Shown here: one piece after another, positions 50,443 to 57,620 of the stretch
Layout: the number at the start of each line of letters is the position of its first letter
How positions within the stretch are numbered: position 1 is the first letter of the stretch
Assembly (NCBI GenBank): GCA_902825985.1
Contig: CADEDC010000008.1
Span: forward strand, 1 to 64,000
From: an uncultured Acidobacteriota bacterium
Lineage (GTDB): Bacteria > Acidobacteriota > Vicinamibacteria > Vicinamibacterales > CAVVIG01
Length of the DNA stretch: 64,000 bases
Reading direction: 5' to 3'
The notes under the pieces: model-generated
Databases searched by the model: none
The model's input: only the letters and a program-made list of their open reading frames with translations
What the model was told of the DNA's origin: nothing
Program-made: the position numbers and the translations under genes

Positions 50443-50859
50443 ATGACACATCGACATATCAAGATCGGCGTCACGACGGTGGTTCTGGTCCTGGCCTTCT
50501 CGGGCCTGCTCTGGTCGACCCTTCGCGAGGGGACCGAGTACTACAAGCACGTCGATGAGGTCATGACGAACCCGCACGAGTGGGAAGGCAAGCGCCTGCA
50601 ACTGCACGGGTTCATCGTGGCGAAGTCGATTCTCGTCAATCCGAACACGCTCGAGTACCGCTTCCGCGTGCAGAGCAATGGGCATGTGGTCGACGCGCGC
50701 TACACGGGAGTGGTGCCCGACACCTTCAAGGACACGCCCGGCGAAGAGGCGGAAGTCGTCCTGAAGGGGCGCCTGAACGACGATGGCTTCCACGTCGATC
50801 CGAACGGCGTCATGGCGAAGTGCCCGTCGAAATACGAACCATCAAAGAAAGTAGGCTAG
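50443..50859 (+). CDS. ccmE: Cytochrome c maturation haem chaperone CcmE, CxxxY type
   Basis: CcmE carries haem from CcmC to CcmF in the periplasm. One N-terminal membrane anchor (~8-25) is followed by the OB-fold domain (LQLHGFIVAKSI, YRFRVQSNGHVVDARYTG). At the haem-binding position the protein has CPSKY (Cys127 to Tyr131) instead of the classical HxxxY. This CxxxY variant is known from archaea and Desulfovibrio, where cysteine binds haem covalently. Length is 138 aa. The stop codon abuts the ccmF start. Confidence 0.93.
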   Translation: MTHRHIKIGVTTVVLVLAFSGLLWSTLREGTEYYKHVDEVMTNPHEWEGKRLQLHGFIVAKSILVNPNTLEYRFRVQSNGHVVDARYTGVVPDTFKDTPGEEAEVVLKGRLNDDGFHVDPNGVMAKCPSKYEPSKKVG

Positions 50860-53344
<2,485 letters not shown>

Positions 53345-53367
<23 letters not shown>

Positions 53368-53947
53368 GGGGGTGCCGCCGCGCACGCTGCCGACGACTCC
53401 TGACACCGACGCCGAGCCGGGACTGCGCCCGTGGCAGTTCTTCGTGCTCGCCGCCCTCGGCTGTGCGACCGCCATCACGTGGATGGCCCGTGCCGAGGGC
53501 TTCATCGCCGTCCTGCTGCTGACCATCGTCATGGGCTCGATTGGCGTGGCGGCGCTCGCCGCGCTGCGCACCGTCGCGCCACTGGTGACGCCGGAGGAGG
53601 ATCGCACGCCGATGGTGGGCGAGCGGACGCGCGCCGCACTCGAGCGCGAGAAGATGCTGACGCTGCGTGCGATCAAGGAGCTCGAGTTCGATCGCGCGAT
53701 GCGCAAGCTGTCGGACGACGACTTCCAGGAGATGTCGGGTCGCCTGCGCGCCCGCGCCTCGCGCCTGATGCGGCAGCTCGATGCCGGCGGCGGCTATCGC
53801 CCCCGCATCGAGCAGGACCTCGCGAAGCGGCTGGGCGAACAGGCCGAGGCGGCGGCCCGCGCCACGGCGCCGGACGCCTGCGCCAGCTGTTCGACGGTCA
53901 ATGATCAGGACGCGCGGTTCTGCAAGTCGTGCGGAGCGAAACTGTGA
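53345..53947 (+). CDS. CcmI-like membrane protein with C-terminal zinc ribbon
   Basis: This 200-aa protein has two membrane helices (~30-75) and a cytoplasmic helical part in which LRAIKELEFDRAMRKLSDDD resembles the CcmI coiled coil. A C-terminal zinc ribbon follows, CASC-x(11)-CKSC. It starts at ATG 53345, overlapping the ccmF 3' end by 23 bases; a GTG at 53372 is an alternative with poorer ribosome-site spacing. Its stop overlaps the next start (TGATG). A role in apocytochrome handling is inferred from context and the partial CcmI likeness. Confidence 0.75.
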
Positions 53948-55179
53948 TGGGTCGGGGCGGGTGGCGGTCGGTGGCCGGGGTGCTGGCGGTGCTGTGCCTG
54001 TCCACCTCCGGCGCGGCGCAGTTCCAGATGCCCGACGCGAAGCAGATGTCGGGGATTCCGCGGCCGGTCAACGACCTGCCCGACCGGACGATCTCGGTTC
54101 GCGTCATCCGCGGCGACATGTCGAACAACATCGTCAATCAGCCGGTGGAGTTCACCGTGGACGGCCAGGCGCAGCCGGCGACGACCAACGCGGACGGGCG
54201 TGCCGAGATCGTCGCGCCGGCCGGCGGAGCCGTCATCAAGGCAGCGACCACCGTGGACGGCGAGCGTCTCGAGTCGACCGAGTTCCCGGCGCCGACCAGC
54301 GGCGGCGTCCGGATGCTGCTGGTCGCGACCGACAAGGAGAAGGAGGCGAGAGCTGCCGCCGATGCGGCGGCGCCCGCCGTCACCGGCATGGTCGTGCTCG
54401 CCGGGGAAACCCGCCTGGTCGTCGAACCCGACGAAGAGAACGTCCGCGTCTACTACCTGCTCGACATCACGAACAACGCACGGACGAGGGTCACGCCGCA
54501 GGCGCCGTTCGAGTTCGAGCTGCCAGCCGGCGCCGCCGGCGCCGCCCTGATGGAAGGGTCGTCGCCGCAGGCGCTGCTGAACGGCACGCACGTCCGGGTC
54601 AACGGCCCATTCGCCCCGGGCGCAACGTTCGTCCAGATCGGCTTCATCCTGCCGCAGAAGGATGGCGTGGTCGAGATTGCACAAACCTTCCCGGCCAACA
54701 TGGAGCATCTGGGCGTCATCGTCCAGAAGGTCGGTGACGCCAGGTTGACCTCACCGCAAATCGACCGGCAGCAGGACATGCCGGCCGGCGGTGCCGTCTA
54801 CATCGCGGCGGCGGGTGGAGCGGTCACAGCCGGAACGCCGGTGCAGCTCACCATCACCGGCCTGCCGCATCACAGCTCGACACCCCGCTACGTCGCCCTG
54901 TCGCTGGCCTTCGCCGTCGTCGTGCTCGGCATCTGGCTGGGCGGCCGGACGACGCCGGCAACCGCGGGCGGTGGCCGCAAACAGCTGGTCGCCCGGCGCG
55001 AGAAGCTGTTTCAGGAGCTGGTCCGTCTCGAACACGACCACCGTCGCGGCAAGGGTGACCCGCATCGCTACCAGGCGCGGCGCGAGGAGCTGCTGTCGGC
55101 ACTGGAACACGTCTACGGGGCGCTCGAAAGTGAAGGGACGAGCCCCGATCCGGCGGGACGTCCGGGCGTCGCCGCGTGA
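53947..55179 (+). CDS. Exported, membrane-anchored protein of unknown function inside the ccm operon
   Basis: A signal peptide (cleavage near GAAQFQ) is followed by a beta-sandwich-like domain (~40-120, carboxypeptidase-regulatory-like, with TTNADGRAEIVAP). A second beta-rich region (~145-300) follows, then a membrane helix (ALSLAFAVVVLGIWLGG) and a cytoplasmic basic coiled-coil tail. Length is 410 aa. The tail EKLFQELVRLEHDHRRGKGD recalls the helical signature of the preceding zinc-ribbon protein. I do not recognise a named family. It overlaps both neighbours (ATGA, GTGA), so it is made with the Ccm proteins. Confidence 0.75.
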   Translation: MGRGGWRSVAGVLAVLCLSTSGAAQFQMPDAKQMSGIPRPVNDLPDRTISVRVIRGDMSNNIVNQPVEFTVDGQAQPATTNADGRAEIVAPAGGAVIKAATTVDGERLESTEFPAPTSGGVRMLLVATDKEKEARAAADAAAPAVTGMVVLAGETRLVVEPDEENVRVYYLLDITNNARTRVTPQAPFEFELPAGAAGAALMEGSSPQALLNGTHVRVNGPFAPGATFVQIGFILPQKDGVVEIAQTFPANMEHLGVIVQKVGDARLTSPQIDRQQDMPAGGAVYIAAAGGAVTAGTPVQLTITGLPHHSSTPRYVALSLAFAVVVLGIWLGGRTTPATAGGGRKQLVARREKLFQELVRLEHDHRRGKGDPHRYQARREELLSALEHVYGALESEGTSPDPAGRPGVAA

Positions 55180-55877
55180 CCCTCGACTTCGACCGCATCC
55201 AGCTGGCCGACGTCTCCCGCCACTTCGGCCGCCGCCGGGCGGTGTCCAAGATATCGCTGACGGCGCGGGCGGGCGAGATCATCGGCCTGCTCGGACCGAA
55301 CGGCGCCGGCAAGTCGACCATCATCGGCATGCTCGCCACGCTGGTGGCGCCGACCGTCGGCACCATCACCTACGGCGACCGAACGGCGCGCGAGGCAGGT
55401 CCTGACGTGCGCGGCCGCATCGGTCTGCTGGCCCACGAACTCCACCTGTATCCGGAACTGACGGCCCGCCAGAACCTCGAGTTCTTCGCGCAGCTGCACG
55501 GCGTCCGCGGCACCGACGTCGTCACGGCGGCCCTCGAGTCGGCCGGACTCGCGGAGCGTGGCGCCGACGAGGTGGCCGGGTTCTCCCGCGGCATGCGGCA
55601 GCGTCTGGCCCTCGAACGCGCGCTGTTGCACCAGCCGCGGCTGGTCCTGCTGGACGAACCGTTCACCGGCCTCGACGACCGCGCCGTGCGTCTCGTCTCG
55701 GATCGGCTCCGGGCCCTGGCGGCCGGCGGGGCCATGGTGATGCTGGCGACCCACGACCTGGATCTTGCCGACGGTCTCATCTCACGCGTCGTCATCATCC
55801 GCGACGGCCGCCTGATCACCGACGAAGCCGGCGGCAGCGGCTTGCGCGCCCGCTATCGCACCCTGGTGGGGCACTGA
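55176..55877 (+). CDS. ccmA: Haem-exporter ATP-binding protein CcmA
   Basis: CcmA is the ATPase of the CcmABCD complex that releases holo-CcmE from CcmC. Walker A GPNGAGKST, the signature FSRGMRQRLALERALL and Walker B LVLLDEPFTGLDD are intact in a single 233-aa ABC domain. It starts at GTG 55176 overlapping the upstream stop and is followed by ccmB after 6 bases. Context, rather than sequence alone, fixes it as CcmA. Confidence 0.9.
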   Translation: MTLDFDRIQLADVSRHFGRRRAVSKISLTARAGEIIGLLGPNGAGKSTIIGMLATLVAPTVGTITYGDRTAREAGPDVRGRIGLLAHELHLYPELTARQNLEFFAQLHGVRGTDVVTAALESAGLAERGADEVAGFSRGMRQRLALERALLHQPRLVLLDEPFTGLDDRAVRLVSDRLRALAAGGAMVMLATHDLDLADGLISRVVIIRDGRLITDEAGGSGLRARYRTLVGH

Positions 55878-55883
55878 CCGCTG

Positions 55884-56561
55884 ATGCCGTTCCGCGTCGC
55901 ACTCCTGATCCTGAAGAAGGACTTCCTGATCGAGGTGAAGAGCCTCGAGATTCTCTCGACGACGCTGTTCTTCGCCGTCTCGTGCCTGCTGGTCTTTTCG
56001 TTCGCCTTCGTCAAGGAGGGCTCGCCGGTGCAGGATGCCGCCGCCGGCATCCTGTGGATTGCGATCGCGTTTTCCGGCACGCTGGCGCTCGGCCGGGTGT
56101 TCGAGCGTGAACGCTACGGCGAGACGCTGCGGGCGCTGCTGCTGGCACCCGCCCCCCGTCCGGCGATCTATCTCGGCAAGCTGTTCGGGATGGTGCTGCT
56201 GATGTTCACGACGGAAGTGGTGCTGGTCCCCATGGTGGCGCTCCTCTTCCAGGCGCCGCTCTTCTCGCGGCCGCTGCTGCTCTTCGTGCTCCTCGCCGCC
56301 GGTACGGTCGGGTTCGCGTCGGTCGGGACGCTCTTCGCCGCGATGCTCGTCCGCGCCCGCACACGCGATATCATGCTGCCGATCCTCTTGTATCCGGTGA
56401 CCATCCCGGTGATGATTGCCGGCGTTCAGGGGACCTCGGCGTTGCTGCAGGCGTCGCCTGACGAAGCGATGGCGACGATGTGGATCGCGATCGTCTCGAC
56501 GTTCGACGTCGTCGCCATCACGCTGTGTTTGTGGATGTTCGAGCCGCTCATGACCGAGTAG
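55884..56561 (+). CDS. ccmB: Haem-exporter permease CcmB
   Basis: This 225-aa protein has six membrane helices with the CcmB-typical N-terminus KKDFLIEVKSLEILSTTLFF and the loop GRVFERERYGETLRALLLAP. It pairs with CcmA in the ABC part of the complex. A 118-base gap follows before ccmC, the largest inside the operon. I see no promoter or terminator in it. Confidence 0.93.
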   Translation: MPFRVALLILKKDFLIEVKSLEILSTTLFFAVSCLLVFSFAFVKEGSPVQDAAAGILWIAIAFSGTLALGRVFERERYGETLRALLLAPAPRPAIYLGKLFGMVLLMFTTEVVLVPMVALLFQAPLFSRPLLLFVLLAAGTVGFASVGTLFAAMLVRARTRDIMLPILLYPVTIPVMIAGVQGTSALLQASPDEAMATMWIAIVSTFDVVAITLCLWMFEPLMTE

Positions 56562-56679
56562 GCAGGGTACGACCGCTTGACGGGAGCGCCCGCGGCCGCA
56601 CCTGAGCGGGGACTGCGCCTCCGAGCGGCGGTGTCCGCGTCAGTCGCGATGGGTGTGGCGCCCCATCGCAGGTGAAAAC

Positions 56680-57336
56680 ATGACCCGATTCTTTCTCCCA
56701 GTCTTCGGTGTGACGGCGCTGATGTTTGCCGGCGCGCCGTTCGTGATTGCCGACGCGCCCTACGAATCGACGATGCTGCTGGTGCAGAAGATCTTCTACT
56801 TCCACGTGCCGGCGTGGTTCGTGATGTTCACCGCCATCTTCATCTCGGGCATCTGGAGCGCGAGGTACCTCTTCAAGGGCGATCGCAATGCCGATCGCGT
56901 CGCCTTCGCGGCGGCGGAAATCGCCGTCGTGTTCGGCTTGATGGGACTGGTCACGGGACCGCTCTGGGGCCGCAAGGCCTGGGGCGTCTGGTGGCAGTGG
57001 GACGCCCGCCTGACGATGGCGCTGTTGCTCGAAGCGATTTTTATCGGCTACCTGCTGGTCCGCAAGTACGGGGGGCCCGGCTCCGAGAAGCTCAGCGCGG
57101 CGATGGCGATCTTCGGCATGCTGAACGTGCCGTTCGTCTATATCTCGGTCAACATCTGGCGGACGATTCACCCCAAGACCAGCGTGGTGCCGACGCTCGG
57201 GCCCGGGATGTTCGGCGCGTTCTGGTTCAGCGTGATTGCCTTCATGCTGTTGTTCGCGCTGCTCATGCATCTGCGCGTGCGGCTCGAGCAGCAGCGCGCC
57301 GCACTCGACGACCTCTATCTCGCGGAAGAACCATGA
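56680..57336 (+). CDS. ccmC: Haem transfer protein CcmC
   Basis: CcmC loads haem onto CcmE. It has six membrane helices, the WWD segment WGVWWQWDARLTMALLL and histidines flanking it (YFHVPAWFVMF and WRTIHPK). Length is 218 aa. I chose the ATG at 56680, which has AGGTG just upstream, rather than the earlier in-frame ATG at 56653. The stop overlaps the next small gene (ATGA). Confidence 0.93.
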   Translation: MTRFFLPVFGVTALMFAGAPFVIADAPYESTMLLVQKIFYFHVPAWFVMFTAIFISGIWSARYLFKGDRNADRVAFAAAEIAVVFGLMGLVTGPLWGRKAWGVWWQWDARLTMALLLEAIFIGYLLVRKYGGPGSEKLSAAMAIFGMLNVPFVYISVNIWRTIHPKTSVVPTLGPGMFGAFWFSVIAFMLLFALLMHLRVRLEQQRAALDDLYLAEEP

Positions 57337-57620
57337 CCATGTTGAAGAAGCTGTCCGTCCTGTTCCTGACGGTGCTGTTGACCGGCGCACCGCTGCTCGC
57401 GTCGCAGCCGCCCGGCGGCGCCGCGACCGACGGGTTCGTCCCGCTCGATTCACTGCCGCCGCAGGAGCAGCTGCCGGCGGCACCGCTGCTGGTGACCGCC
57501 TACGCCTTCGTGTGGGTGTTGTTGATGGCGTACATCTGGTCGATCGCGTCCCGCCTCCGCAAGGTCGAAGCGGAAATGGCGACGCTGCAGCGCCGGACAC
57601 CGGGAGCCGCCGGGCGGTGA
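57333..57620 (+). CDS. CcmD-like small membrane protein with signal sequence
   Basis: This 95-aa protein begins with a hydrophobic segment (LSVLFLTVLLTGAPLLAS) that could be a signal peptide, then a Pro-rich stretch. A single membrane helix follows with the CcmD-like ending YAFVWVLLMAYIWSIASRLR and a charged KVEAEMATLQRR tail. CcmD normally has 40-70 aa, so the N-terminal part is extra. It starts inside the ccmC stop; an alternative ATG lies at 57339. Confidence 0.75.
   Translation: MTMLKKLSVLFLTVLLTGAPLLASQPPGGAATDGFVPLDSLPPQEQLPAAPLLVTAYAFVWVLLMAYIWSIASRLRKVEAEMATLQRRTPGAAGR

Follow-up and report, generated by a model that had tools for sequence, protein, structure and literature searches.

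The stretch of DNA analysed here (the window, 64,000 nucleotides) contains what is very probably a working cytochrome c maturation operon of the System I* type, belonging to a Vicinamibacteria-type acidobacterium. As in System I, CcmA, CcmB, CcmC, CcmE and CcmF are encoded together in one operon, with the gene order E-F/H-X-Y-A-B-C-D, in which X is a CcmI-like protein and Y a beta-sandwich protein (Table 1). The CcmE carries a cysteine, Cys127, where classical CcmE proteins have their haem-binding histidine, and the CcmF is fused to a CcmH-like domain with five cysteines.

In the proposed mechanism CcmABCD would carry haem to the outer face of the membrane, where the tryptophan-rich motif of CcmC would offer it to CcmE. 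Cys127 probably replaces His130 of the E. coli protein as the residue of haem attachment, by way of a putative thioether bond, with Tyr131 as the likely iron ligand. Following a presumed release step, CcmF would accept the haem and attach it to apocytochromes. The handling of the apocytochrome and of its cysteines most likely falls to the CcmF-tethered CcmH domain and the two CcmI-like proteins.

Table 1. Features of the ccm operon in the window.
Feature	Position	Strand	Basis
ccmE, cysteine type	50443..50859	+	138 aa; PF03100 match, PDB alignments, conservation
Codons for the CPSKY haem-binding motif of CcmE	50820..50835 (approximate)	+	Sequence; alignment with E. coli HDENY
ccmF part of the fused ccmF-ccmH gene	50860..52845 (whole gene 50860-53367, 835 aa)	+	CcmF_C E 1.9e-57; Cytochrom_C_asm E 2.3e-38
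CcmH-like C-terminal domain	52930..53367	+	PF03918 E 1.6e-10 (domain alone), E 1.2e-9 (whole fused protein)
CcmI-like membrane protein with C-terminal zinc ribbon	53372..53947	+	GTG start at 53372 inferred; operon place, profile links
Membrane-anchored beta-sandwich protein with CcmI-like C-terminal helical loop	53947..55179	+	Gene order, shared loop; start inferred
ccmA, ABC-transporter ATPase	55176..55877	+	ABC_tran E 6.7e-30; TIGR01189 124 bits, just under cut-off; operon place
ccmB	55884..56561	+	PF03379 E 2.5e-31
ccmC	56680..57336	+	Cytochrom_C_asm E 4.2e-23; TIGR01191 E 5.3e-29; start inferred (ORF opens at 56653)
ccmD-like small membrane protein	57333..57620	+	Weak PF04995 match, E 0.086; placed after ccmC

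The haem-binding position of CcmE

The open reading frame at 50443-50859 matches the CcmE family PF03100 with an E-value of 1.1e-19 and 71 bits (Pfam cut-off 24.6), and its product has the build of a CcmE, i.e. a membrane anchor at the N-terminus followed by an OB-fold. Residues 126-131 read KCPSKY and include Tyr131 and the sole cysteine of the protein, Cys127. In phmmer alignments against the PDB, Cys127 lies opposite His130 of E. coli CcmE (AKHDENY; entries 8ce8 and 1sr3) and opposite the cysteine of D. vulgaris CcmE (KCPLE; 2kct), such that C127-PSK-Y131 pairs with H130-DEN-Y134 of the E. coli protein. K126, C127 and Y131 are invariant in all 91 cysteine-type sequences of an alignment with one sequence per genome, and all 91 fit the pattern K-C-[PA]-[ST]-[KR]-Y; the 14 histidine-type sequences in the alignment carry HDENY, HDNEY and similar motifs. 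Since the neighbouring residues switch from acidic to basic along with the haem-site residue, the change concerns the whole motif and not a single position. The initial annotation had read a CxxxY motif in place of HxxxY with Cys127 at the haem position, and both the PDB alignments and the complete conservation uphold this reading. Judged from these comparisons, Cys127 occupies the haem-binding position of a CcmE of the archaeal and Desulfovibrio type.

The other histidines of the protein (His3, 5, 36, 45, 55, 81 and 117) are conserved neither in the 91 cysteine-type nor in the 14 histidine-type sequences. As Cys127 itself aligns with the classical histidine, a location of that histidine elsewhere in CcmE was ruled out. 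A chance or frameshift origin of KCPSKY was ruled out as well by the invariance of the motif in 80 named loci and 90 sampled genomes. These 80 nearest named loci are practically all from Acidobacteriota and all read AKCPSKY.

A less probable, though still serious, alternative to the covalent bond is that Cys127 acts as a non-covalent thiolate ligand of haem, so that no bond has to be broken and CcmE is a simple shuttle. A different haem-CcmE bond and different release chemistry, which the initial annotation took the variant to imply, may exist, but published results conflict, with covalent attachment in D. desulfuricans CcmE versus binding of ferric haem by D. vulgaris CcmE (2KCT) through its conserved cysteine, C127, without a covalent bond (PMC3884852). 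Moreover, according to PMC3601427 a stable thioether would be hard to release, and the making and breaking of a thioether-like link between haem and the cysteine of CcmE is recognised there as a puzzle of System I*. Against this, the CcmE proteins of D. desulfuricans and M. acetivorans form covalent, haem-stainable holo-CcmE (PMC3601427; PMC9084895). According to PMC3601427, the cysteine-CcmE operon of D. desulfuricans yields holocytochromes in E. coli, and its haem binding is covalent; in M. acetivorans CcmE residue C120 is required for haem attachment, with C120H being no substitute (PMC9084895). In addition, Tyr131 and Lys126 are invariant together with the cysteine, as expected if the site is that of histidine CcmE. 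Covalent attachment through Cys127 is the reading preferred here.

The operon and its five-cysteine CcmH domain

The initial annotation had remarked that the operon still has CcmA, CcmB, CcmC and CcmF. All four were detected, but this is nothing unusual: to our knowledge every System I* operon keeps them, and the published question concerns CcmH, CcmG, CcmD and CcmI. Its list did not include the CcmF-fused CcmH domain, the CcmD-like gene and the two CcmI-like genes. In CcmF, the histidines H172, H260, H302 and H504 and the WWD residues W235, W239, W241 and D242 are invariant in an alignment of 51 fused relatives, and the AF2 model is nearest to Thermus CcmF (6zmq, E 8e-27). CcmC keeps the WGVWWQWD motif and two flanking histidine regions (FYFHVP and TIHPK). 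A gene of the CcmD family occupies the place matching that of the ccmD-like gene in a Metabacillus plasmid (L175).

Between the fused gene and ccmA lie the two CcmI-like genes. The helical loop of the first product (53372-53947) reads EREKMLTLRAIKELEFDRAMRKLSDDDF. The Bacillaceae gene in the same operon place matches CcmI (TIGR03142) with an E-value of 1.6e-4, under the cut-off, and its profile retrieves the CcmI of histidine-type operons (L045 and L046). The window protein ends in a zinc ribbon, which the Bacillaceae counterpart does not have. The second product (53947-55179) is conserved across cysteine-type operons and has a counterpart at the same place in Bacillaceae. It has a transmembrane helix, with the CcmI-like loop on the cytoplasmic side; the fold predicted by AF2 (pLDDT 89.7) is partly like OST1/ribophorin I, with a TM-score of about 0.3, and no function was drawn from this match. 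Neither accessory gene gave a match to a TPR domain, the apocytochrome-binding part of CcmI, and the likeness to CcmI is confined to its N-terminal loop.

The fused five-cysteine CcmH is the less ordinary part of the operon and the part worth following up. The domain matches the CcmH structures 2hl7 and 2kw0 in the PDB (E 8e-4). Its AF2 model, of medium confidence, predicts helices at residues 707-715, 734-748 and 753-764 and a C-terminal transmembrane helix at 778-805, which supports the three-helix bundle and membrane anchor of classical CcmH. The five cysteines are C718, C720, C723, C731 and C733 (CLCGSC...CTC). These columns (CxCG(x)C...CxC) are kept in 119-120 of the 120 distinct sequences of the class, fused or separate; classical CcmH retains just two of the five columns. 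The LRCxxC active site of classical CcmH is not present in the window domain, which reads VCLCGSC. The domain does contain C720-GS-C723, yet approximately half of the class reads CxCxC and thus lacks CxxC altogether. CcmF and CcmH are fused in 10 of the 12 genomes sampled from the window's order, and two further genomes share the fusion. In the open-licence literature, the only literature covered, a published description of the five-cysteine class was not found, which is slight evidence of novelty.

The same genome has a second CcmH-like gene on another contig (L243:6140-6643; G000 contig C11:24139-24644), with a PF03918 match of E 7e-20. It reads APCCYSQQASVHQS where CxxC is expected, and adjoins a TonB receptor gene, apart from the remaining ccm genes. 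About ten further Acidobacteriota genomes have a CcmH of this APCCW class, and no other CcmH was found in them.

Distribution of CcmE and CcmH types

Among 149 Acidobacteriota genomes searched, CcmE was found in 100, of which 90 have the cysteine type and 11 the histidine type, one genome having both. The cysteine CcmE is thus not a local oddity, CPSKY also having been reported as the majority form already in 2011. The observation on the CcmE residue is correct, but the variant was already known and is typical of the phylum. In the genome with both types (G069; L011 and L055), the CPSKY cysteine-type and HDEQY histidine-type CcmE are on separate contigs.

The cysteine and histidine types of CcmE part at a single old split: they lie on either side of one branch of the CcmE tree, which has an SH-aLRT support of 98, or 87 after removal of the motif columns. 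Bacillaceae group with the cysteine type, and E. coli, Deinococcus and Pseudonocardia with the histidine type. The midpoint root serves for drawing only, and the direction of change is not given by the tree. The CcmF tree requires two changes. Operon order follows E-F-(H)-X-Y-A-B-C in the cysteine type versus A-B-C-E-F-H in the histidine type. The comparison outside the phylum consists of plasmid-borne operons from Bacillaceae, Deinococcus, Pseudonocardia, Natronorubrum and E. coli; a contig scan for related loci gave only Acidobacteriota-like loci. Five metagenome-assembled records (L094, L096, L135, L162 and L166) carry acidobacterial ccm operons under the titles Acidimicrobiia, Bifidobacterium breve or Cyanobacteria, which look wrong. 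Almost all archaeal CcmE proteins are described as having CxxxY; the haloarchaeal CcmE on a Natronorubrum bangense plasmid (L244:10001-10456) ends VRAHEGEHPDDH, with neither CxxxY nor HxxxY.

The CcmH classes, read by eye from the genome table together with a genome-wide CcmH search, are distributed along this split. CcmH was detected in 10 histidine-type Acidobacteriota genomes, in every case in the LRCxxCQ form, which is found in none of the 90 cysteine-type genomes. The latter comprise 49 with the five-cysteine class, 10 with only the APCCW class elsewhere in the genome, one with another form, one with a match whose motif was unread and about 29 in which no CcmH was detected. In the cysteine-type genome G017, an LYCPVCP protein is additionally encoded elsewhere.

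This distribution, the near-complete conservation of the five cysteine columns and the occurrence of a CcmH without CxxC in the cysteine-type Bacillaceae operons as well might suggest that cysteine CcmE and five-cysteine CcmH are coupled, with the extra cysteines aiding haem release or guarding against wrong thiol exchange. We consider such coupling unlikely. The cysteine/histidine difference is one event in the CcmE tree, and an independent-contrast check of the association yielded one independent pair only, so that common descent and functional coupling are not separable. Furthermore, the cysteine-CcmE genomes in which CcmH was not detected or is of the APCCW class alone speak against coupling, and those with no detected CcmH show that haem release from a cysteine CcmE does not in general require the five-cysteine domain. 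A broader proposal, put forward here as a speculation with rather poor odds, is that the cysteine-CcmE systems of Acidobacteriota, and of Bacillota, are a separate and older branch within System I that has an apocytochrome-handling module of its own. Such a module would comprise a five-cysteine CcmH, in many cases joined to CcmF and using metal-thiolate or multi-disulfide chemistry, and two TPR-less CcmI-like partners, adapted to haem that comes from a cysteine-bound chaperone.

Genome context and comparison with known systems

The whole assembly contains one CcmE, one DsbD-type protein and, at about 65 places, cytochrome c domains (Cytochrome_CBB3). A second maturation system was considered, but ResB of System II was not found in the genome, an assembly of 174 contigs and 98 percent completeness in which such a system could escape detection. 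From the single CcmE, the absence of ResB and the many cytochrome c domains it follows that the operon is most likely the working maturation system, and most likely the only one of this genome. CcmG is not encoded in the operon; five TlpA-like places occur in the genome, all under the cut-off, and the lack of any CcmG match above it counts against a working system. The order E-F-H-CcmI-like-Y-A-B-C-D is found also in Bacillaceae plasmids bearing KCPSKY, which counts in favour of a working operon. That the window CcmE is an inactive relict and cytochromes are matured by another system is a general idea for which no specific support was found, and it is most improbable in view of this genome content, the invariance of the CcmE motif across the phylum and the intact CcmF and CcmC motifs.

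System I* is the name under which cysteine CcmE was described from archaea and Desulfovibrio (PMC3601427, PMC9084895), in line with the initial annotation. According to the 2011 review, CPSKY is the majority System I* motif (25 of 36 genomes) and is present in delta-proteobacteria, chloroflexi and firmicutes (PMC3601427). Acidobacteriota are not named as a System I* phylum in the open-licence papers found. The absence of CcmH, part of the original System I* description of 2006, was withdrawn as a defining feature, and CcmH is present in about a third of System I* bacteria (PMC3601427). The present genome belongs with these bacteria, having both the CcmF-fused domain and the second CcmH-like gene.

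The operon resembles System I* in the cysteine of CcmE, which falls in the cysteine clade, in the identical CPSKY and in the presence of CcmABC and CcmF. What sets it apart is the CcmF-fused CcmH domain with its five cysteines, together with the pair of CcmI-like genes. As a bacterial, CcmH-containing System I* with different CcmH cysteines, it makes the role of CcmH testable by domain swap. In addition, it shows the cysteine type as the main CcmE form in a large environmental phylum, with the non-cysteine form across one old split.

With System I of E. coli (CcmABCDEFGH) the operon shares CcmA, CcmB, CcmC, a CcmD-like protein, CcmE, CcmF, a CcmH homologue and the key residues of CcmF and CcmC. 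Unlike the E. coli system it has CPSKY in place of HDENY and follows the order E-F/H-X-Y-A-B-C-D, where E. coli has A-B-C-D-E-F-G-H; it also encodes no CcmG and no TPR-containing CcmI, and its CcmH is without LRCxxCQ. The CcmABCEF system of M. acetivorans likewise has a cysteine CcmE, in which the cysteine is needed (PMC9084895), but is without CcmD, CcmH and CcmI, and its CcmF is split over two genes. Bacillaceae are usually linked to System II; complete cysteine-type ccm operons are nevertheless present on plasmids of this family (L174 and L175). The plasmid operons of Cytobacillus firmus (NZ_CP107028.1) and Metabacillus (NZ_CP088246.1) have a separate ccmH gene with two cysteines only (GCTDSMTADYC), followed by a TlpA-like gene, but resemble the window operon in their KCPSKY CcmE and in a gene order that includes both CcmI-like genes.
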